This document shows, one piece after another, positions 5,410 through 18,233 of a stretch of DNA of 64,000 nucleotides. Position numbers and translations under genes: made by a program. How positions within the stretch are numbered: position 1 is the stretch's first letter; each line of letters starts with the position of its first letter. The notes beneath the pieces were generated by a model that worked only from the letters and a program-made list of their open reading frames with translations, made no database searches and had not been told where the DNA came from. The DNA comes from Rhodococcus pyridinivorans. GTDB taxonomy: Bacteria; Actinomycetota; Actinomycetes; Mycobacteriales; Mycobacteriaceae. The stretch spans positions 372,001 to 436,000 of the forward strand of contig NZ_FNRX01000002.1 of assembly GCF_900105195.1 (NCBI RefSeq), read 5' to 3'.

Positions 5410-7914
5410 TTACGACTCCTTAGCTCCGGCTGCGTCGGCTTCGTCCGGCTCGTCGGCGTTGCGCGCGATCGCGAGCAATGTATCGCCCTCGGCCAGGTTC
5501 ATGAGCCGCACGCCCTTGGTCTGACGGCCTGCCTTGCGCACCTGCTTCGCCGCAGTGCGGATGACACCGCCGCTCGAGGTGATGGCGTACAACTCGTCGT
5601 CGTCCTCGACGATGCGCGCCCCGACCAGGTTGCCACGCTTGCGGTCGTACTGGATGGTCAGAACACCCTTACCGCCGCGACCTTGGACCGGGTAGTCCTC
5701 CATCGGGGTGCGCTTGGCGTAACCACCCGAGGTAGCGACCAGCAGGTACGTGCCCTCCTTGACGACGTTGAGCGAGAGCAGCTTGTCCTCGCCGTTGAAC
5801 CGCATGCCCTGCACACCGGAGGTCGCGCGGCCCATCGGACGCAGCGCCTCGTCGGTGGCCGAGAAACGGATCGACTGGCCCTGCTGCGAGACGAGCAGCA
5901 GATCGTCCTCGGCGGAGCACAACACCGCGCCGACGAGCTCGTCGTCGCCGCGCAGGTTGATCGCGACGATGCCGCCCGAACGGTTTGAGTCGAAGTCCGA
6001 CAGGCGCGACTTCTTGACCAGGCCGTTGCGGGTCGCGAGCACCAGGTACGGCGCATCCTCGTAGGTTTTGAGGCGGATGACGCCCTGGATGCGCTCGTCG
6101 GGCTGGAAGGCCAGGAGGTTCGCGACGTGCTGACCACGCGCCGTGCGATTCGCCTCGGGCAGCTCGTACGCCTTCGCGCGGTAGACGCGGCCCTTCGTCG
6201 TGAAGAACAGCAGCCAGTCGTGCGTGGACGTCACGAAGAAGTGCTTGACGATGTCGTCCTGCTTGAGCTCGGCACCCTTGACGCCCTTGCCGCCGCGCTT
6301 CTGCGAGCGGTACAGGTCGGTGCGCGTGCGCTTGGCGTAACCGGTCTCGGTGATGGTGACGACGACGTCCTCACGTGCGATGAGGTCCTCGTCGTTGACA
6401 TCGCCGTCGGCCGCGACAAGCCGCGTGCGGCGCTCGTCGCCGTACTTGTCGACGATCTCCTTCAGCTCGTCGCGGACGATGGCGCGCTGCCGCTCCGGAC
6501 GGGCCAGGATGTCCTTGTAGTCCTCGATCTCGCGCTCGATCTCGGCGAGGTCGTCGACGATCTTCTGACGCTCGAGAGCAGCCAGGCGACGCAGCTGCAT
6601 CGCCAGGATGGCGTCGGCCTGGATCTCGTCGACCGTGAGCAGATCGATCAGGCCGGCGCGCGCGATGTCGACGGTCTGCGACGCGCGGATGAGCGCGATG
6701 ACCTCGTCGAGCGCGTCGAGGGCCTTGACCAGGCCGCGCAAAATGTGGGCGCGTTCCTCGGCCTTGCGCAGCAGGTACCGCGTACGCCGGACGATGACCT
6801 CGATCTGGTGGTTGACGTATAACCGGATCATCTGGTCGAGGCGCAGCGTGCGCGGCACCCCGTCGACGATCGACAGCATGTTGCAGCCGAAACTCGTCTG
6901 CAGCTGCGTGTGCTTGTAGAGGTTGTTGAGAACCACCTTGGCCACCGCGTCGCGGCGGACAGTGACGACGATGCGCATGCCCACGCGGTCGGACGACTCG
7001 TCGTGGATGTCGGAGATGCCCGCGATCTTGCCGTCGCGGACCTGTTCGGCGATCGACGTGATGAGGTTGTCCGGGTTGACCATGTACGGCAGCTCGGTGA
7101 TGACGATGCTGGTGCGGCCCTTGGAGTCCTCTTCGATCTCCACGACGCCGCGCATCTTCACCGATCCGCGACCGGTCGTGTAGGCATCGTGGATGCCCTG
7201 CGTGCCCGTGATCAGGCCGGCGGTCGGGAAGTCCGGTCCCTTGATCCGCTCCATGACCGCGGCGAGGGTGGTCTCCTCGTCGGCCTCGAAGTTGTCGAGC
7301 GCCCAGTAGATGGCCTCCGCAACCTCCCCGAGATTGTGCGGCGGGATGTTGGTGGCCATACCGACCGCGATACCGCCCGAACCGTTGATCAACAGGTTGG
7401 GGATACGGCTGGGGAGAACCGTCGGTTCCTGCGTGCGGCCGTCGTAGTTCGGCTGGAAATCGACCGTCTCGTGGTCGATCTCCCGCAGCATCTCCATCGC
7501 GAGCGGCGTGAGCCGGCACTCGGTGTACCGCATGGCGGCGGCGCCGTCGTTGCCGCGGGAACCGAAGTTGCCCTGGCCGTCGACGAGTGGATAGCGCATC
7601 GACCACGGCTGCGCCAGACGCACGAGCGTGTCGTAGATCGACGCGTCGCCGTGCGGGTGGTAGTTGCCCATGGTCTCGGCGACCGCGCGCGCCGACTTCA
7701 CGTACCCGCGGTCGGGGCGGAAGCCGTTGTCGAACATCGCATAGAGCACGCGACGGTGCACCGGTTTGAGACCGTCACGCACGTCGGGCAGAGCACGGCC
7801 CACGATCACGCTCATCGCATAATCGATGTAACTGCTCTGCATCTCCTGCTGGATGTCGACGGGCTCGATGCGGTCGTGCCCCGGCCCCTCCGGAGGCAAC
7901 GTGGTGTCGGTCAT
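5410..7914 (-). CDS. gyrA: DNA gyrase subunit A
   Basis: An 834-residue type IIA topoisomerase subunit, which cuts and rejoins DNA in the A2B2 gyrase. The catalytic tyrosine is Tyr130 in [11 protein letters not shown]. The winged-helix quinolone region [20 protein letters not shown] spans residues 83-102. The GyrA-box-like [10 protein letters not shown] begins the C-terminal beta-pinwheel that wraps DNA. Residue 91, equivalent to E. coli Ser83, is Ala, as in mycobacteria. There is no intein at Tyr130, a known insertion point in some mycobacterial GyrA. Unusually, gyrA is not beside gyrB: about 8 kb (MHYT genes plus a conservon) lies between them. Confidence 0.98.
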
Positions 7915-8062
7915 GAGCTCCTTCTTCTACTCGGCTCGCACGCCCGGCTCCGGCCTTCGGCCCGACGGACGTCTCGCAACCACACGAGTCTATAGGTGCA
8001 GGTCAGCCGATGCCGAGAAGGACAGGCACTTCACAGCCCGAGATCTGTCCGGAACCGAGTTC

Positions 8063-8896
8063 TCACATGTGGGATCCGGTGACCGGGTCGCGGTCCACCT
8101 GCCGTTCCGCCTCCGACGCCCACTGCCCGAGCCGGGCGTCGCGCACGGCGTCCTCCGGGTCGGAGGCGAGCAGCAGCGCGGTGATCGGCACGGCCAGGAC
8201 GATGATGCCGAGGACGAACGCAGGGAACAGCAGCGACATCACGGTCATGCCTTCGGGCGCGGGCATGCTCGGATCGAGGGTGACCCGCACGCCGGCCATG
8301 CCGGTGTAGTGCAGCGCCACGACCGCGCATCCCATGACGAAGGCCGCGACGACGCGGATCTCGAGACGACGCGTGCGGCGGGCCAGTGCGAGCGCGGCCG
8401 TGGAGGCGACGACACCGATGATCACCGAGGCGATCACGTACCCCGTCTCGTGTTCGATCGCGCCCCGGATGCGGATGGCGTACATGCCGCTGTAGTGCAT
8501 CATGCTGACGGCGGCGCCCATGAGCAGACCGCCGATGAGCAACCGCACCGATTCGGGAATGCGGTGCTTGCTGACGTCGTGCACGTCGGCGATCCGCAGA
8601 CCCACGAGGGTCGCGACGACGGCGAGCACGACAGAGAAGACCGTCGGTGCCAGTTCGTATCGGATGGTCGTACCCGGCACGGAGAAGCCCATCATGCCGA
8701 TGAAATGCATGAGCCAGATGTCCACGCCGCCGATGGACAACGATGCCATGAGGAGCCACCAGTTGCCGCTGCGCCGCGGCTCTTCGAGCGACCGCCGGAC
8801 ACAGGACAATCCGACGAAGGATCCCATCACAGCGGTGGCGTAGGAGAGGAGGAAAACCCATATCCCCATGGAGAAGTGGTGTACGTCGTGCGACAC
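8063..8896 (-). CDS. MHYT-domain seven-helix membrane protein (paralogue 1)
   Basis: A 277-residue integral membrane protein from a GTG start, with about seven hydrophobic helices. The three diagnostic MHYT motifs are intact: LMHFIGMMGF, MMHYSGMYAI and ALHYTGMAGV, plus the N-terminal HHFSMG. The family is thought to use these His/Met residues to bind copper and sense oxygen, CO or NO, but here no GGDEF/EAL or kinase domain is attached: the protein is a bare sensor or a redox/transport module. The C-terminal tail is short, charged and cytoplasmic. It is a clear paralogue of the next two genes, all leftward; 133 bases separate it from its neighbour. Confidence 0.9.
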   Translation of the reverse strand: MSHDVHHFSMGIWVFLLSYATAVMGSFVGLSCVRRSLEEPRRSGNWWLLMASLSIGGVDIWLMHFIGMMGFSVPGTTIRYELAPTVFSVVLAVVATLVGLRIADVHDVSKHRIPESVRLLIGGLLMGAAVSMMHYSGMYAIRIRGAIEHETGYVIASVIIGVVASTAALALARRTRRLEIRVVAAFVMGCAVVALHYTGMAGVRVTLDPSMPAPEGMTVMSLLFPAFVLGIIVLAVPITALLLASDPEDAVRDARLGQWASEAERQVDRDPVTGSHM

Positions 8897-9029
8897 GTGA
8901 GGTCCTCACAGCGGCGCGCTGTCACCACCGCGCTCGGAGGGCACGCGCCACGACCTACCCGATGCGGGCTGCACCCCGACTTTCCAGCAGCGTAAGCGAG
9001 CTTATCGCGCTGTGGGTGTTCACATCACA

Positions 9030-9869
9030 TCACCGTTTCACATGTCGTCCGTAAGGACGGGAGACCGTCTCGGGGCCGTCCCCACCGAGCCAGATCGCCA
9101 TCTCCCGCTCCTGCTCGAGGTCCTGTGTGCTCGCCGATGCCATCAGAGCTACGACCGGCACCGCGAGCAGCGCGACACCGATGATGAATCCAGGGAACAG
9201 CAGGGTCATGATGGTCATCCCCTCCGGATTCGGAGCGGACGGATCGACGGTCACCGCGATCCCGGCCATGCCCGTGTAGTGCAGTGCCACCACGGCGCAT
9301 CCCATGACGGCGGCGGCCGGGATCCGCACGGCCGGCCGTTCCGCGACCCGCGACAGCCACAACGCGACGATCGACGCGACGACACCGATCGCGACGGACG
9401 CCGCGACGTACGACCGTCCCTGCTCGAGTTCGCCCTGGATCCGCACCGCGGCCATGCCGCTGTAGTGCATGCCGGCGACCGCGAAGCCCATGATCACGCC
9501 GCCGACGAGAAGCCGGACATCCGACGGCAACCCACGGATCCACTGCACGTCGGTGTCGAGGATCCGCAATCCGACCAGCGTGGCCGTCACGGCGAGCGCG
9601 ACCGACAGCAACGTCAGTCCGAGGTCGTAACGGATCGCGGAACCGGGTACGTCGAAGCCCATCATCCCGATGAAGTGCATCAACCAGATTCCGACGCCCC
9701 CGATGGACAGGGCTGCCATGAGTGTCCATCGGGTCCGGGCGACCGACGTCCATGCGTTCGCAGCCTTGCGCGCGCAGGACAGACCGGCATAGCACCCCAC
9801 TGCGGACGTGATGTAGGCGAGTGCGAAAAGCCAACCGCCCATGGAAAAATGGTGAACCTCGTGCGACAT
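9030..9869 (-). CDS. MHYT-domain seven-helix membrane protein (paralogue 2)
   Basis: A 279-residue membrane protein. I use the ATG at 9869 (GGGGG-type ribosome-binding site, and an N-terminus matching paralogue 1: MSHEVHHFSMGGW), not an earlier in-frame start. All three MHYT motifs are present: LMHFIGMMGF, GMHYSGMAAV and ALHYTGMAGI. It aligns with paralogue 1 along its whole length, indicating tandem duplication. No signalling domain is fused. The 146-base gap upstream contains a palindrome (9986-10002), so it may have its own promoter. Confidence 0.9.
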   Translation of the reverse strand: MSHEVHHFSMGGWLFALAYITSAVGCYAGLSCARKAANAWTSVARTRWTLMAALSIGGVGIWLMHFIGMMGFDVPGSAIRYDLGLTLLSVALAVTATLVGLRILDTDVQWIRGLPSDVRLLVGGVIMGFAVAGMHYSGMAAVRIQGELEQGRSYVAASVAIGVVASIVALWLSRVAERPAVRIPAAAVMGCAVVALHYTGMAGIAVTVDPSAPNPEGMTIMTLLFPGFIIGVALLAVPVVALMASASTQDLEQEREMAIWLGGDGPETVSRPYGRHVKR

Positions 9870-9985
9870 GTTGCCCCCCAGGAAGCGGCACGCACGGCAC
9901 ATCGATCCGTGTCGTGCCGAGTAGACCGACAGCGACCCCCGACGCTGCACAGAAGACTACTCCACTTCCGGGTTTTCAACCAGAT

Positions 9986-10002
9986 ATGTTGACTTACAAC
10001 AT
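9986..10002. promoter_or_regulatory. Inverted repeat upstream of MHYT paralogue 2
   Basis: ATGTTG-ACTTA-CAACAT, a perfect 6-bp inverted repeat with a 5-base spacer. It lies in an AT-richer patch of the 146-base gap between paralogues 3 and 2 and is extended on the right by the overlapping palindrome AACATGTT (9998-10005). It is about 115 bases ahead of the paralogue 2 start. It may be a repressor or activator site; it lacks a T-tract on either side, so it is unlikely to be a terminator. Confidence 0.4.
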
Positions 10003-10015
10003 GTTCGGACGATAT

Positions 10016-10828
10016 TCAGAAGGTCCGACCGTCGACGGGATCTACCGGGCCGTCGGCCGCCCACCGCTCGGATTCCTCTTCCAGTTCCGCCGCAAGACGA
10101 TCCGGGGCCTGGAGCACCAGGACGATCGGAACGGCCAGCAGCAACAGGCCTACGACGAAGAGCGGGAAGAGAATGGAGAAGACCTCGATCCCACCGGAAA
10201 CCACCACGGCGGGGTCGATCTCCACACGGACCGACGCGGCGGCGAGGAAGTGCACCGCGATCACGGCGACGCCGGCCAACGCGCTGCTCAGCAGGCGCTT
10301 GGGCCACGTGTCCGCCGTCTTCACCTGGGCCAGGAAGCCCACGGCCGTCGCGATCGCCAGCCCCACCGCTGCGGCGACCCAGAGCGGATCGAAGGTCAGC
10401 GATCCCTGGATCCGCACCGCTGCGAGGACCGAGAACGGCGCGCCCGCAAGGCCGGCGCCCAGCACGAGAGCACCCGTGACCGTCCGGGCGAGGGTGGCGG
10501 GAGCGTTGTCCGGGATCGCGACGAGCAGCGCCACGTACACCGACACCAGCGCGACGAGCATCGAGAACACGATGGTGACGGTGTCGAACCGCACCACACT
10601 GTCCTCGACGTTGAAGCCCGCCATCGGAAGGAACATAGCGAGCCAGACACCGACGCCACCGCTCACCAGGGCAGCGAGAATCATCCAGTACGAACGCAAT
10701 CGGTCGCTGGAGGTGGTGCGGACCCGTCGAGCACCGGTGACCCCGATGAACACCCCGATCGCCGAGGTCAGATAGGCAAGGACCGTGACCCACGAGCCCA
10801 TCGTGAAGAGTTCGAGGCCCTCCCCCAT
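10016..10828 (-). CDS. Degenerate MHYT-like membrane protein (paralogue 3) coupled to the conservon
   Basis: A 270-residue, seven-helix protein that aligns with the two MHYT paralogues (N-terminal TMGSW, YLTSAIG, GGVGVWL, AAVRIQG, ILFPLFVVG) but has lost most signature residues. Motif 1 MHFIGM is MFLPM (His absent), motif 2 MHYSGM is PFSVL, and only motif 3 keeps a His (VHFLAA). The N-terminal HHF is ELF. Metal binding of the MHYT kind should therefore be abolished or changed. The ATG shares a base with the GTPase stop (TAATG at 10826-10830), so it is translated with the conservon and may be its membrane partner. No frameshifts are seen; this is an intact gene, not a pseudogene. Confidence 0.82.
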   Translation of the reverse strand: MGEGLELFTMGSWVTVLAYLTSAIGVFIGVTGARRVRTTSSDRLRSYWMILAALVSGGVGVWLAMFLPMAGFNVEDSVVRFDTVTIVFSMLVALVSVYVALLVAIPDNAPATLARTVTGALVLGAGLAGAPFSVLAAVRIQGSLTFDPLWVAAAVGLAIATAVGFLAQVKTADTWPKRLLSSALAGVAVIAVHFLAAASVRVEIDPAVVVSGGIEVFSILFPLFVVGLLLLAVPIVLVLQAPDRLAAELEEESERWAADGPVDPVDGRTF

Positions 10829-11415
10829 TACTGGGTCACCGGCTGGTGCAGCTTCCGCAGAGCGTATTCGGTGACGGTGACCAGGGCCTGCTTCGCCGAC
10901 TCACGTGCTCGCGCATCGATCGACACGATCGGCACATCCGCCGAGATCGCCATCGCCTGACGGATGTCCTCGAGCGGGTACCGGGGAGCATCGTCGAATT
11001 CGTTGATGGCGACGATGAACGGGAGATTGCGCGCCTCGAAGAAGTCGACGGCGGCGAAGCTCTCATCCAGGCGACGCGTATCGATCAGCACAATCGCCCC
11101 GATGGCGCCGCGGATCAGGTCGTCCCACATGAACCAGAAGCGGTGCTGTCCGGGCGTGCCGAACAGGTAGAGGACGAGGTCGTCGGCCAGACTGATACGA
11201 CCGAAGTCCATGGCGACCGTGGTGGTCGCCTTCTGCGGTGTCGCAGAGAGGTTGTCGACGCCGTCGCTGGCGTTCGTCACGAGCGCCTCGGTACGAAGCG
11301 GCACGATTTCCGACACCGTCCCGACCAGAGTCGTCTTACCGACGCCGAAGCCTCCGGCGATCACGATCTTGGTCGAGGTCACGCGCTTCGTGGCGTTAGA
11401 GTTCGCGAAGTCCAC
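10828..11415 (-). CDS. Conservon Ras-like GTPase (CvnD type)
   Basis: A 195-residue small GTP-binding protein of the actinobacterial conservon family (MglA/Ras-like). The P-loop is GGFGVGKTT at residues 21-29, the switch II region LFGTPGQHRFWFMWDDL, and the NKxD position reads INEFDD. I start it at the GTG at 11415 (AAAGGG seven bases upstream), overlapping the DUF742 gene by 20 bases. Conservons (sensor kinase A, roadblock B, DUF742 C, GTPase D) are known in Streptomyces as membrane-linked G-protein-like complexes. The cue sensed here is unknown. The MHYT-like gene follows by a TAATG overlap. Confidence 0.93.
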   Translation of the reverse strand: MDFANSNATKRVTSTKIVIAGGFGVGKTTLVGTVSEIVPLRTEALVTNASDGVDNLSATPQKATTTVAMDFGRISLADDLVLYLFGTPGQHRFWFMWDDLIRGAIGAIVLIDTRRLDESFAAVDFFEARNLPFIVAINEFDDAPRYPLEDIRQAMAISADVPIVSIDARARESAKQALVTVTEYALRKLHQPVTQ

Positions 11416-11770
11416 TGAGGACCCTTTCAATCAGCTCACGACGCTCCGCGTCGCTCGAATCGTCTTTCAGCGTGGCCAGGATCTGTACGTGTCCGGCTTC
11501 GACGAGATCGGCGACGAGCACGCGTGCCACGCCGATCGGCACCCCCACGCGCGCGGCGATCTCCGCGACGGAGGGTGATTCCTTGCACAGCTCCAGGATC
11601 GTGGCATTGATGTTGTCCAGATCCCGGGACCGATCGTCGGTTCCCGGAATGGCCTGGATGAGCGCCTCCAACGCCAGTTCGACCGCAGGACTCGTACGTC
11701 CCGAAGTCAGGGAGTAGGGCCGGACCAGACTGGGCTGATCCGGCACGGACTCCGGCTTCCGCGATTCCAT
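11396..11770 (-). CDS. Conservon DUF742 protein (CvnC type)
   Basis: A 124-residue protein. The N-terminal SLVRPYSLTSGRT is the conserved DUF742 opening, followed by a winged-helix-like region (SVAEIAARVGVPIGVARVLVADL). The ATG at 11770 has GAGG at good distance; a GTG two codons earlier is too close to it. It overlaps the GTPase gene and lies 13 bases after the roadblock gene. Its role is structural or DNA-binding-like within the conservon complex; the biochemical activity is not established. Confidence 0.9.
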   Translation of the reverse strand: MESRKPESVPDQPSLVRPYSLTSGRTSPAVELALEALIQAIPGTDDRSRDLDNINATILELCKESPSVAEIAARVGVPIGVARVLVADLVEAGHVQILATLKDDSSDAERRELIERVLSGLREL

Positions 11771-11783
11771 GGCCACCTCGACG

Positions 11784-12200
11784 TCAGGACCCTAGACCGA
11801 CCCGCGGGGTGGCTTCGACCGAAGCACCCACTCGATCGACCAAGAGCGCCATCTCGTAACCGACCTGTCCGATGTCGCACTCGGAGGCGGTCAGAGCCGC
11901 CAGGTGCGAGCCGTCGCCGACGCTCATCAGCAGCAAGTAGCCGTGCTGCATCTCCACGACGGACTGCAGCACACCCCCACCGTCGAACAGCTGCGACACA
12001 CCGTTGGACAGGCTGGCCAGACCCGAGGTCACCGCAGCGAGCTGCTCGGCACGATCCACCGGGAGGTGGGCGCTGGCGGCCATGAGCAGACCGTCGGCGG
12101 ACACGAGCACGGCATGCGAGACACCCGGGACTTCGCGCGCGAAGTTGGAAACCAACCAGTCCAATGGACGAGCTGCGTCGGATCCATGATCAATATTCAT
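11784..12200 (-). CDS. Conservon roadblock/LC7 protein (CvnB type)
   Basis: A 138-residue protein with the roadblock/LC7 fold: [20 protein letters not shown], then [11 protein letters not shown] and a mid region [16 protein letters not shown]. Roadblock proteins act as GTPase-activating or scaffolding partners of MglA-like GTPases, here the product at 10828-11415. Its ATG overlaps the stop of the sensor kinase gene (ATGA, 12197-12200), giving a tight A-B-C-D order. Confidence 0.94.
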
Positions 12201-15200
12201 CGAACTCCCTGTTCGTCGTTCTCGCGATTGCTGGAATTCGCCGAGGCGCGTCCGTTGCGGACACCCTGCTGATGGCGGCTCAAGTTGGCCCGGATGGCTT
12301 CCGGGTCTCGACGTCGAATGGTCCTCGGCAGCTCACCCGTTGCCGGTGCCCGAACAGCACCCGGCACCAGACGCTCGCCGGGAGCGCGCCGCGGAAGACC
12401 CGCGGTGGTGTGCTCCTCCACGGGGGACTCGGTAGCACGCTGTGCGGCTTCCCAACCCGCGTCCGCCGCGGAGCGCCACTCCCGCTTCCTGCGGTCCTCC
12501 GGAAGGCTCGTCGGGTCGACGAGCCAGTCCGACATCATCGTGGTGAAGATCGGGGTGTTCGCCGGCTGCGGACGGGCCGACGCGAGGTCGGACCGCGGCT
12601 GGAAGAACGATGCGGTCTTCGCCGAGTTGGTCCGGTAGCGATGGCGGGCCGCCTGCTGCGCGTCGCTGTGCGGCGAGACGGAGCCACCGTCGGCGATGCT
12701 CGGGCCGGAGACCGCTGCGGCCGAATCGGGTTCGGAAGCGTTGGTCGACGCAGCGGGCTGCTGCGGAAGCCCCGGCGTGCTGCCCGGCTGACGACGCGGC
12801 AGACCGGGCGTGCTTCCCGGACGACGCTGCGGGAAACCCGTCGAGGGTTCCTGCTGCCGACGGTCCGCATCCTGCTCGGGGGCGCGCTGTGCGTCCGGCG
12901 CGGGGGCGCGCTGGGGCAGGTCGGGACGGTTCGGTGTGTCCGGGCGACCTGCGGCGTCGCCACCTGCGAGCGGTCCCGCCGACGGCTGTTGCTGCGGCCG
13001 GTTCTGCGGAACGGACGGGGACGATCCGGAAGCCCGTCCCGGCAGGCCGGGAGTCGCGCCCGGCCGACGCTGCGGAAGACCGGGGGACGCGGGTCGCTGC
13101 TGCGGGGCGGGTGCACGATGCGCCGAACCCTGCTGGGGCTCACGGACCGGCAAGGACTGCGACTGCGACTGCTGGGAGTCCGTTGGCGACAGGCCCGGTG
13201 TGGCACCGGGACGACGCTGCGGAAGACCCGAAAGCCCTTCCCGGCGAGACCGATCGGCGTCGGGTCGTGGCCCGGCACCGTTGCGGCCGTCGAGCGGGTG
13301 ACCGTTGGTCTCGTCCGGCCCGCGACGAGGACCGCGCGGAGGCAGCGACGACGCGAAGGCTGCGGCGGCGTCCGGCTCGATCCGGCGCGGCTGCGGCGAC
13401 CGGGGTGGAGTCGGGAGACCAGGCGTCTCGCCCGGCTGACGCGTGGGCAGACCCGGAGTTCCACCCGGGCGACGCTGCGGAAGCCCCGACGGGCCGAACT
13501 CGCGGGATGCCGGCGGTGCCTGATTGTCGCGCTGCGGCTCGTCGCGTCGCTCGTCGTCGTAGGACGGCTCCGCATCCCATGCGGCGGAAGCGCTCTCGTC
13601 GACATCGGCGGCGTAACCGTTGTTCGCGTAGCCGTTGTCGTAGGCATCGTCGGACTCGTCCGCACGGACATCGTCGGCGGAGTCGAGCGACTGCGAGGAC
13701 GCGTACTCGTGCCGGTCGTCGGCCGCGGGCAGACCCTGCGGGGCGACGGGCGCCGAGAGCGCCTGCGGTGCCGAGTACTCCTCCGCTTCGATCTCGATGC
13801 GCGGCTGGGGACCGGTGTGCGACAACGCCAACGGGGAGACCAGCAGGACGTCCGGGATGTGGACGCTCGCGGTGATACCCGGGTTGCGTGCGGTGTCGAA
13901 GGTCGGGCGCAGGCGCACGGTGAGACCGTGCCGCTCGGCCAGTCGCGAGACCACGAACAGACCCATGTGGCGTGCGGTGTCGGGACCGACCTCGCCGCCC
14001 TTGGCGAGACGCTGGTTGATGGACTCGAGTTCGTCGGCCGGGATACCGATACCGCGGTCGGCGATCTCGACGAGCAGGCCACCGTCGACGGCTCGCGCGA
14101 AGCTGAAGGTGACGTTGCTGTCGGGCGGCGACGCGCGCAGCGAGTTGTCGACCAGCTCGGCGAGCAGATGCACGATGTCGGTCGCGACCGCGCCGCTGAG
14201 GGCACCGTCGGGAGTCGAACCGATCTGCACGCGCTGGTAGTCTTCGACCTCCGACATCGCGGCGCGCAGGATGTCGCCGAGCTGCACGGGCGCGGAGTGA
14301 CCGCGGCGCGTGCGGGTACCGGAGAGAATCAGCAGGTTGTCGCCGTTCCGGCGCATACGCGCGGCGAGGTGGTCGAGGCGGAACAGGCTCTCGAGTCGGG
14401 CCGGATCCTTCTCCTCGTACTCGAGTCGTTCGATGAGGCCGAGCTGCTGCTCGACGAGCGACTTGGAGCGACGTGCGAGTGTCTCGAACATGTCGCTGAT
14501 CTGCAGGCGGAGGTGTGCCTGCTCGCCGGCGAGACGCAGTGCCTGCCCGTGCATGTCGTCGACGGCGCGGGCGAGCTGACCGATCTCCTCGGTGGTGTGC
14601 ACCGGGACTCGGGTGAACTCGATATCCTCGATGTTGTCGCCGACCTTGATGCGGTCGATGGCCTCGGGCAGCTCCTGCCGCGCGACCTTCAGCGTGCCGT
14701 AACGCAGGCGGCGGATCGGGCCGACCAGTGAGCGGGACACGAGCAATGCGAGCACGAGGGCTGCGAGCAGGGCTGCGAGCACGATCGCGGTGTCGCGGAG
14801 AGCGGCCGAGCGGGTTTCCGCGGCGCGGTCCTGAATCGTGGTGCTGACCTGCGACGACGCCTCGTCGATGATGGTGCCGTAGATGTCGACACTCTTGAGC
14901 AGCGACGCGCGGATGTCGAGGATCGGGAGCGGACCGGAACCGGCCGCGTCGACCATGTCGGCACGTTCCTGGACGCCGGCCCGCAGTTCGGCGATCTGCT
15001 GATCGGCCATCAGGTAGGAGCGGGCGAGCAGGTCGAGCATCGCGAGCTCGGCGCCGGAGGCGGACACCAGCGCGGTGCCCGGCTGGGTCGGGTCGTCGAT
15101 CAGCTGGAGCAGACCGAGAACCTGACCGAAGAGGTAGCGCTGCGAGTACCACGCGTTGATCAGCTGGTCGCCGTAGCCGATGATCTCGCGATCGTCGACC

Positions 15201-15682
15201 TCGTCGAGGATGGCCTCGACGACACGGTTGAGGCTGTCGCGCACCTCGTTGGTGACGGCACCGATCTCCTCGATCGGCACCGGACCCGCCTGAATCTTCG
15301 TGTAGAGCGACTGGGCCGTGGCGGCGGTGCGGCTGAGGTCGGCGGTCACGGCGGGATCGAGCTCGGGGTTCTCCGTGATCGCGGCGATCGTGCCGAAAGC
15401 GTCACCGAGAGCCGCCATTTCCTCGGGGGTCGCCGTTCCGACCGCGGCATCCGCGGTGGCGGTGGCGAACGCCGTCGAGAAATCCACGATGTCCGGCACG
15501 GCTGCGACCTGATCGGCTGCGGACGAGAAGTGGACGGCGTTGCTGAGCTCGTTCTCGACCCGAAGACCACCGAGGACCATTGCCACAGTCACGGGGACAG
15601 CGAGAACGGCGGTGACCTTCCTGCGAAGACCCCACCCCTCGATGTTCCACCACCGCTGCTGGGGCGGCGACTTGTCACTCAT
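12197..15682 (-). CDS. Conservon sensor histidine kinase with NIT domain and repeat-rich tail (CvnA type)
   Basis: A 1161-residue protein. TM1 spans about residues 22-42, an extracytoplasmic nitrate/nitrite-sensor-like helical region about 50-290 and TM2 about 297-320. A HAMP-like linker follows, then a dimerisation helix with [14 protein letters not shown] near 430. The HATPase_c domain is at about 500-595 ([10 protein letters not shown]-box, [11 protein letters not shown]1 box, [11 protein letters not shown]). The remaining ~560 residues are disordered and carry repeated PQRRPGxTPGLP units. Kinase phosphorylation is not assured, since CvnA proteins often act as ATP-binding scaffolds. It starts at the ATG at 15682 and is the first gene of the conservon. 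A 349-base upstream gap should hold its promoter. Confidence 0.92.
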
Positions 15683-16031
15683 GGATCACAGCTCTCCTTC
15701 CACCCCGTCCGCGCCGGGCGACGAACACCAGTCGGCACTGCACTCCGTTGAGCGCGTTTTCGATCGAGTGCAGTCGAACGAGACGTTTCGGGTGAGGGCA
15801 CCATATCGGGACATACAGCGGATACGGAAGAGTGAGTTCTTCCCGTACCCCGCGCTGCCCCAGCCCCCTCGTCGGCAGCCACACGTACAGATGGCCGATA
15901 GAAGTGTACTCACGAGTAACGAAGAAGGCTAACGGCCCTGCCCACTTCCGGGCGCACGACATGCGAATCCCCGCCGTGATGTACGACACAGCGGGGATTC
16001 GCATGCAGTTCTCCGGCGCTGCCGGCCGTGA
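15683..16031. other. Intergenic region between gyrB and the conservon
   Basis: No credible gene: the open frames here lack family features and ribosome-binding sites. The region must contain the promoter of the conservon kinase and the 3' end signals of gyrB. The only clear element is the inverted repeat at 15960-16005. Confidence 0.6.
15960..16005 (-). terminator. Likely gyrB terminator hairpin
   Basis: A perfect 15-bp inverted repeat CATGCGAATCCCCGC / GCGGGGATTCGCATG with a 16-base loop, beginning 27 bases past the gyrB stop on the leftward strand. There is no T-tract, as is common for actinobacterial terminators. Confidence 0.65.

Positions 16032-18233
<2,202 letters not shown>

Follow-up and report, generated by a model that had tools for sequence, protein, structure and literature searches.

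The conservon locus and its fifth gene

Within the 64-kb window of Rhodococcus pyridinivorans, by which we mean the whole stretch of DNA that was analysed, the minus strand carries, in this order, dnaA, dnaN, recF, one further ORF, gyrB, cvnA, cvnB, cvnC, cvnD, the genes MHYT3, MHYT2 and MHYT1, and gyrA (Table 1). All four core genes of a conservon are present and in order, as judged from the ORFs and Pfam, and a protein search located a fourth MHYT gene elsewhere in the same genome. A scan of positions 7700-12500 returned neither a terminator nor a minus-strand promoter match, a type of scan that is not informative in an actinobacterium of high GC content. Towards its C-terminus, CvnA (12197-15682) has a long part with several GLPxRxPGxTPGLP-like repeats, recognised by eye, which recall the LPxR motif described in conservon kinases (PMC4316618).

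Table 1. Features of the conservon-MHYT locus, in coordinates of the window.
Feature	Position	Strand	Basis
MHYT3, eroded MHYT-family seven-TM protein, 270 aa, ATG start, directly 3' of cvnD	10016..10828	-	ORF, Pfam, alignment, AlphaFold2 model
TAATG, overlap of cvnD stop and MHYT3 start	10826..10830	-	sequence; -1 overlap in 14/14 Rhodococcus
MHYT3 eroded motif 1, WLAMFLPMAGF, residues 62-72	10613..10645	-	alignment; coordinates computed from ORF
MHYT3 eroded motif 2, GAPFSVLAA, residues 129-137	10418..10444	-	alignment; coordinates computed from ORF
MHYT3 partly eroded motif 3, AVHFLAAAS, residues 191-199, His193 kept	10232..10258	-	alignment; coordinates from ORF
MHYT3 juxtamembrane tail APDRLAAELEEESERWAA, residues 241-258, PDR conserved in coupled copies	10055..10108	-	alignments, model (helix 244-258); coordinates computed from ORF
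cvnD, Ras-like (MglA-type) GTPase	10828..11430	-	ORF, PF03029 106 bits (ATP_bind_1/GTPase match)
cvnC (DUF742), overlaps cvnD	11396..11776	-	ORF, Pfam
cvnB (Roadblock/LC7)	11784..12200	-	ORF, Pfam
cvnA, HAMP + HATPase histidine-kinase-like protein, 1161 aa, two TM segments 257 residues apart	12197..15682	-	ORF, Pfam, hydropathy
MHYT2, intact MHYT protein, motifs kept, no PDR tail	9030..9869	-	ORF, Pfam, alignment
MHYT1, intact MHYT protein, motifs kept, no PDR tail	8063..8896	-	ORF, Pfam, alignment
gyrA, first gene past the MHYT genes (context)	5410..7914	-	ORF context
gyrB, upstream of cvnA (context); listed TTG start probably too far upstream	16032..18224	-	ORF context

MHYT domains act as sensors in the membrane; CoxC detects CO by means of copper, and MucR no longer responds to nitrate once a His in motif 2 is replaced by Ala (PMC11347149). 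The only Pfam family that MHYT3 matches at E ≤ 1 is PF03707, at 36.1 bits with a cut-off of 21 (MHYT2 reaches 113.5 and MHYT1 125.9 bits), and none of the pentapeptide repeat, GAF and cytochrome P450 domains was found in it at that threshold. In an alignment of the three copies, where MHYT3 is 33-34% identical to its neighbours, the N-terminal VHHFSMG reads LELFTMG, losing both His and retaining Met10. Motif 1 changes from WLMHFIGMMGF to WLAMFLPMAGF, with Met replaced by Ala, His by Met, and Met69 retained. Motif 2 changes from GMHYSGM to GAPFSVL, replacing Met, His, Tyr and the distal Met alike, while in motif 3 (ALHYTGM to AVHFLAA) His193 stays and the distal Met is gone. The preliminary description had reported loss of His and Met in motifs 1 and 2 and at the N-terminus, which the alignment confirms, with Met10 and Met69 kept; the missing distal Met of motif 3 was absent from it. 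The MHYT family is recognised by three motifs with conserved Met, His and Tyr near the outer face, a set that MHYT3 does not carry. Since motifs 1 and 2 are lost and motif 3 keeps only its His, MHYT3 is, judging from its sequence, an MHYT homologue by descent and not a canonical MHYT sensor.

The AlphaFold2 model of MHYT3, built from 51 sequences (mean pLDDT 90.3, pTM 0.84), consists of seven long helices followed by a C-terminal helix, in line with the earlier statement that the helices are kept, and hydropathy roughly agrees with seven TM helices. The C-terminal helix (244-258, pLDDT about 71-86) starts at the Arg of an APDR sequence. A sequence search of the PDB with MHYT3 gave 0 matches, and a PDB fold search gave no significant match.

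At the junction with cvnD, the stop codon of cvnD (10830-10828) and the ATG of MHYT3 (10828-10826) share one nucleotide in an exact TAATG, as had been described before. This -1 overlap is kept in all 14 Rhodococcus MHYT3 copies, the own genome included (TAATG in 8, TGATG in 2, TAGTG in 4), and thus persists while the stop (TAA, TGA, TAG) and start (ATG, GTG) codons vary, which argues that it is more than chance. GGTGA, read from the sequence 8-12 nt upstream of the ATG, is a candidate ribosome site, and together with the overlap makes translational coupling of MHYT3 to cvnD likely.

MHYT genes recur behind cvnD

A protein search with MHYT3 in 201 genomes of the family yielded at least 122 matches in 58 genomes, and a CvnD search in the same draw gave 113 matches in 86 genomes at E ≤ 1e-70. 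We call an MHYT match coupled when it lies within 600 bp downstream of cvnD on the same strand. By coordinates, 54 of the 113 cvnD matches have a coupled MHYT gene, to which tblastn of the flanks adds 2 at contig ends, so that 56 coupled copies stand beside 66 others. Eight genera show coupling, namely Rhodococcus (g1; 15 of 15 cvnD matches), g24 (13/15), g6 (5/5), g23 (14/33), g16 (3/6), g22 (2/8), g26 (1/1) and g31 (1/2); by coordinates, no coupled MHYT was found at the cvnD matches of g10 (7), g29 (14), g20 (3), or g11, g15, g27 and g28 (1 each). One of the 15 Rhodococcus cases, G146, lacks MHYT3 and instead has an intact MHYT gene 311-335 nt past cvnD; this match (L153 7194-8315) carries a TAG near its C-terminal end. 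The idea that the arrangement is unique to the Rhodococcus pyridinivorans genome was rejected, as coupled MHYT genes recur in family genomes. The proposal that MHYT3 is a de facto fifth conservon gene gains from this recurrence (56 of the 122 MHYT matches), and the survey of conservons that had been suggested as a check finds many genomes that link the two, where the claim would have suffered had no other genome done so.

Outside the family the picture differs. In a phylum draw of 396 genomes, MHYT matches occurred in 22 genomes (42 matches, 30 with fetched loci, 24 of these outside the family). When the 24 fetched outside loci were compared with the proteins of the window, no cvnB, cvnC or cvnD was found within 1.5 kb, 7 further outside matches being excluded from this count. 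The MHYT-conservon linkage is therefore so far seen in the Rhodococcus family only. Three loci of the phylum draw (L088, L089, L090) contain a weak CvnA-like match. A deep protein search returned 16 proteins from 7998 scored candidates, and the four named ones are from Rhodococcus.

Several loci depart from the common layout. L041 (1000-2300, G078) is a conservon without cvnD in which an intact MHYT gene follows cvnC, and in L047 (1678-2900, G056), which is without cvnC and cvnD, an intact MHYT gene follows cvnB, the slot position being kept in both. In L216 (2879-3664, G185) an intact MHYT gene lies directly upstream of cvnA and not downstream of cvnD. The ORF downstream of cvnD in L221 (G026) may represent yet another kind of fifth gene: it is unrelated, encodes ~256 aa (MQERTFRKQRAG...) and possibly shares a -1 stop/start overlap with cvnD. 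In g29, a genus that looks mycobacterial, the slot after cvnD holds an MfpA-like product, recognised by eye.

Loss of the ligand motifs among coupled copies

Over all 122 matches, at least one motif His is lost in 34 of the 56 coupled copies and in none of the 66 others; all three are kept in 22/56 and 66/66, respectively. Within g23 the division is complete, with 14 of 14 coupled copies eroded and 30 of 30 others intact. A Fisher test of motif loss against coupling gives 1e-15, a value that ignores relatedness. The correlation that had been predicted is hence strong in counts, and an independent-pairs test on the tree had too few pairs to reach significance. Coupling can do without motif loss: intact MHYT genes are found behind cvnD too, and the notion that coupling requires erosion was rejected on the 22 coupled copies that keep all three His.

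Relatedness was addressed with a maximum-likelihood tree of 128 rows, six of them from outside the family, from which the motif columns were left out; this is a quick tree with SH-aLRT support only and with open forks. All coupled copies fall with Rhodococcus MHYT1 and MHYT2 into one clade (93 rows, SH-aLRT 100). Rhodococcus MHYT3 makes up a type I coupled group (support 89) together with g22, g26 and part of g24, in which 20 of the 25 rows are eroded, while the other Rhodococcus copies and the coupled G146 copy form a group of 33 rows, none eroded (support 97). In the type II group (35 rows, support 88), the coupled copies from g31, g16, g6 and the remainder of g24 are intact, as are five further members without a cvnD in front of them; nested within it, the 14 g23 copies form a clade (support 99) in which every copy is eroded. 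Branches among the coupled copies are long.

If His, once lost, is not regained, the best tree requires 6 losses of the motif-1 His, 8 of the motif-2 His and 5 of the motif-3 His. Loss of any motif His takes 8 events, all on coupled branches. Since coupled branches make up 48% of the tree length, eight of eight at equal rates would have a probability of 0.003, a rough value given the open forks. Plain Fitch parsimony instead finds one early loss and five His regains; we prefer the no-regain count as we judge regain of His unlikely, which is our own choice.

Erosion also goes along with a closer junction, start codons of relatives being inferred. Counting ATG and GTG starts, 21 of the 34 eroded coupled copies overlap cvnD against 2 of the 22 with all three motif His, and the remaining copies with three His have their first start 11-48 nt past cvnD, or 311 nt in G146. 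Among the 14 coupled copies of g23, 9 have an in-frame start that lies 8 nt ahead of where the cvnD stop ends, and these are exactly the ones without any motif His. Overlap is not required, as eroded copies in g24, g22 and g26 do without it.

Selection on MHYT3

Had MHYT3 been under relaxed selection, the earlier interpretation would have been weakened. Its median pairwise dN/dS among seven close Rhodococcus genomes is 0.19, mildly above the intact copies (0.135 for MHYT1, and 0.135 for MHYT2 in six genomes), and MHYT3 is thus under purifying selection. The conservon proteins are far tighter in the same set (CvnD 0.004, CvnC 0.04, CvnB 0).

We also estimated dN/dS face by face, with a codon bootstrap, in six genomes, leaving out the most distant, G068. 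For the outer half this gave 0.222 (0.132-0.344) in MHYT3, 0.077 (0.041-0.123) in MHYT2 and 0.120 (0.064-0.189) in MHYT1, and for the inner half 0.166, 0.182 and 0.139, respectively. The outer face of MHYT3 is looser than that of MHYT2, the intervals being apart, but not clearly looser than that of MHYT1, where they overlap. The ratios of outer to inner dN are 0.86 for MHYT3, 0.80 for MHYT1 and 0.37 for MHYT2. A first run on seven genomes including G068 gave inner and outer values of 0.206 and 0.250 for MHYT3, 0.183 and 0.140 for MHYT1, and, in six genomes, 0.182 and 0.077 for MHYT2. Because the outer interval overlaps that of MHYT1 and the ratio of 0.86 resembles 0.80, a shift of constraint to the inner face of MHYT3 is not established at close range.

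The somewhat faster evolution of MHYT3 (0.19 against 0.135), the long branches among coupled copies and the lack of MHYT3 in Rhodococcus G146 would suit a decaying passenger, that is, a cvnD-proximal copy that is losing its function after duplication and is stuck in the operon. Such a copy would hardly keep a dN/dS far below 1, a confident seven-TM model, and both the overlap and the PDR tail in 14 of 14 Rhodococcus MHYT3 genes. Moreover, in nine genomes (G023, G025, G049, G095, G108, G134, G174, G175, G195) an eroded coupled copy is retained as the only MHYT among the matches listed. We therefore regard decay as very unlikely.

A conserved tail past TM7 and a conserved core

Scanning the whole tail past TM7, we found the sequence PDR (APDR in MHYT3) in 40 of the 56 coupled copies and in 1 of the 66 others; this single non-coupled copy, from G078, follows cvnC in the conservon without cvnD. 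In Rhodococcus, PDR is kept in all 14 MHYT3 copies and absent from all 32 copies that are not behind cvnD. Coupled copies without PDR are those of g6 (0/5), g26, g31, 4 of the 15 in g24, and G146, and four g23 copies have PER. From the topology of the MHYT motifs (PMC11347149) we infer that the tail faces the cytoplasm, and its retention fits a cytoplasmic contact, as far as sequence can tell.

Conservation by region was compared between type I coupled copies and the other Rhodococcus copies, near-duplicates removed, with 19 rows each, bearing in mind that values of the latter set are lowered since it mixes paralogues. More conserved in the coupled set are inner loop 1 (0.53 vs 0.39), TM7 (0.76 vs 0.71) and the C-tail (0.70 vs 0.43), whereas inner loops 2 and 3 are about equal (0.41 vs 0.38 and 0.49 vs 0.50). 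Less conserved are the motif halves of TM2, TM4 and TM6 (0.66, 0.50 and 0.50 vs 0.93, 0.83 and 0.86) and TM5 (0.45 vs 0.70). The previously proposed label of a decommissioned sensor thus fits the metal site, but not the protein, of which core residues and tail stay conserved.

The main rival to the explanation that we favour below starts from this core. It takes MHYT3 for a retuned sensor, whose membrane core would sense another ligand, the lipid state or the membrane potential and report to CvnA or CvnD, loss of the copper ligands being a change in specificity. Residues G11, W13, W48, W62, G71, R80, G146 and G217 (MHYT2 numbering) are at 0.88-1.0 in the coupled groups, and all of these up to G146, together with several states newly fixed in Rhodococcus MHYT3 (Ile86, Ala100 and Phe198 in the same numbering) and the dN/dS of 0.19, speak for it. 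So does the proposal that proteins of this slot are sensory inputs or modulators (PMC13343842). Column 65, that of the former motif-1 His, is at odds with it, as the commonest residue reaches only 0.31-0.38 in three eroded groups; with no single conserved replacement, it looks like a vacated and not a new site. In addition, a segment of 257 residues is already present between the TM helices of this CvnA. We consider retuning a serious, if lesser, possibility.

Rhodococcus MHYT1 and MHYT2 show the reverse of MHYT3, with the sensor site kept and the tail lost. This reciprocal distribution of tail and ligands, and the presence of at least one MHYT1/MHYT2-type gene after MHYT3 in 13 of 14 Rhodococcus genomes, would be expected if MHYT3 were the pseudo-receptor half of a heterodimer that pairs with the intact sensors and links them to the conservon. 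The nine genomes named above, where the eroded coupled copy is the only MHYT among the matches listed, make this quite unlikely, as does G176 (L147), which has no MHYT gene between MHYT3 and gyrA, though one elsewhere. On the same grounds, obligate pairing with an intact copy was rejected.

CvnA and the gyrase neighbourhood

Between the first two predicted TM segments of CvnA lie 257 residues in the window and 247-274 in each of 20 MHYT-coupled loci sampled from other genera. At 20 sampled loci without MHYT the spacing is 251-272 in 18, the other two (L211, L216) having one more predicted segment within the interval. Pfam scored no NIT domain in the CvnA of the window. That MHYT replaces a missing CvnA sensor was rejected, as coupled CvnA proteins retain the segment.

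On a tree of concatenated CvnB, CvnC and CvnD from 47 loci, again quick and with SH-aLRT only, one branch (95) separates 31 'type I' rows, and it also divides the two MHYT groups, type I falling among these rows and type II outside them. MHYT presence changes 7 times on this tree, 6 of which are forced by well-supported branches. Distances of MHYT correlate with those of CvnB, CvnC and CvnD at 0.31, 0.40 and 0.30 (26 loci), modest values that share species history.

In Rhodococcus, gyrA follows in all 14 of the larger loci, and gyrB lies upstream in all 7 that reach that far. Of the type I rows outside Rhodococcus, 13/24 sit between gyrB and gyrA and 11/24 have no gyr gene nearby; the former comprise five g24 and two g22 loci with MHYT, and three g22 and three g10 loci without. 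MHYT may hence be present or absent at the same gyrB-gyrA place (window 5410-18224; loci L196-L202, L204-L209). At L143 (5337-9119, G196), about 1.3 kb interrupts the gyrA match, the pattern that an intein would leave. In M. smegmatis, mfpA is co-transcribed with its conservon (PMC8007378), its product being a pentapeptide-repeat DNA mimic that acts on gyrase (PMC8007378, PMC13015309, PMC4316618) and binds GTP-bound MfpB (Tao 2013, cited in PMC4316618). As a mycobacterial conservon thus acts on gyrase through MfpA, a functional conservon-gyrase link is a candidate worth testing here.

Discussion

We propose, as a reading that we hold to be probable though far from assured, that MHYT3 is a fifth, membrane-embedded subunit of the conservon, whose metal site decayed while its tail was kept, and which now acts as a metal-free platform or regulator. 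Its ancestor, going by the tree, would have been an intact MHYT sensor in the slot after cvnD. In the intact coupled copies of other genera a copper or gas signal could still enter through the MHYT site, whereas in the Rhodococcus MHYT3 lineage and in seven other no-regain events this site would have decayed, the tail being kept in most copies. The seven-TM bundle would adjoin CvnA and contact the cytosolic part of the system from its cytoplasmic face, chiefly through the PDR tail helix past TM7. Given the gene overlap and the precedent of MfpA, CvnD is the likeliest contact of the tail, and might be held or gated at the membrane, as the earlier suggestion of a membrane dock for the GTPase would have it. 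Synteny, loss of the motifs, retention of the tail and purifying selection are shown by the data, whereas CvnD binding, the direction of signalling and the loss of metal binding belong to the proposed mechanism. The conservons L041 and L047, which keep MHYT without cvnD, argue against a purely CvnD-directed role, and with L216, where MHYT lies upstream of cvnA, they make a contact with CvnA or CvnB a live alternative, at least for intact copies.

Conservon complexes were reportedly likened to G-protein-coupled systems by Komatsu in 2006 (cited in PMC4316618 and PMC13015309). Taken further, coupled MHYT proteins might work as bacterial receptors of seven helices with a Ras-like GTPase as their direct target, where the helix past TM7 would contact CvnD and control its nucleotide state or its release from the membrane. 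The ancestral copper or gas input would then have been discarded several times for another or a constitutive one, with the GTPase contact kept, and the result would be a seven-TM/G-protein pair independent of eukaryotic receptors. We put this forward as speculative and rather unlikely. The comparison with eukaryotic receptors is an analogy only: MHYT3 shares with them seven helices and a short helix past TM7, and its gene is coupled to that of a Ras-like GTPase.

The slot itself is known. In the Streptomyces AGPS a fifth gene after cvnD encodes CvnE (a P450) or CvnF (a GAF protein) (PMC13343842, PMC8510531), and CvnF8 enters into a complex with CvnA8, whose ATPase activity and autophosphorylation it stimulates (PMC13343842). 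MHYT3 likewise lies directly past cvnD in a cvnABCD operon, recurs across genomes, is lineage-restricted and is a proposed modulator. It differs in being a seven-helix membrane protein, found in the Rhodococcus family, and in its CvnA, which keeps a segment of ~257 residues between the TM helices, where CvnE and CvnF overwhelmingly accompany a CvnA without sensor domain, according to PMC13343842. MfpA, too, is encoded by a fifth gene right past that of the GTPase, whose GTP form it binds, but it is a gyrase-acting DNA mimic, whereas MHYT3 is an integral membrane protein without pentapeptide repeats. With the sensors CoxC (CO, copper; PMC11347149), MucR and NbdA, MHYT3 shares a homologous seven-TM domain, with PF03707 above cut-off; in contrast to these it stands alone without an output domain, has eroded ligand motifs and is genetically tied to a GTPase. 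No report that joins MHYT with a conservon was found in the openly licensed PMC literature, a search that does not extend to the supplementary neighbourhood tables of PMC4316618 and PMC13343842. In our reading, the MHYT3 class is a new accessory type in a known fifth-gene slot, that of CvnE, CvnF and MfpA, and does not amount to a system of a new kind. The MHYT class falls outside the annotation rule by which accessories of conservons go with a CvnA that has no sensor.

The routes by which conservons receive and pass on signals are still to be established, and a membrane subunit tied to the GTPase gene offers a direct handle on them, with a candidate partner, a tail motif that can be mutated, and natural variants with and without the metal site. 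Among the genomes examined, a domain proposed to sense gases has given up its ligand site only where it is coupled. This amounts to a replicated natural experiment, and the pattern of motif loss may tell apart the sensory and the output halves of the MHYT domain.
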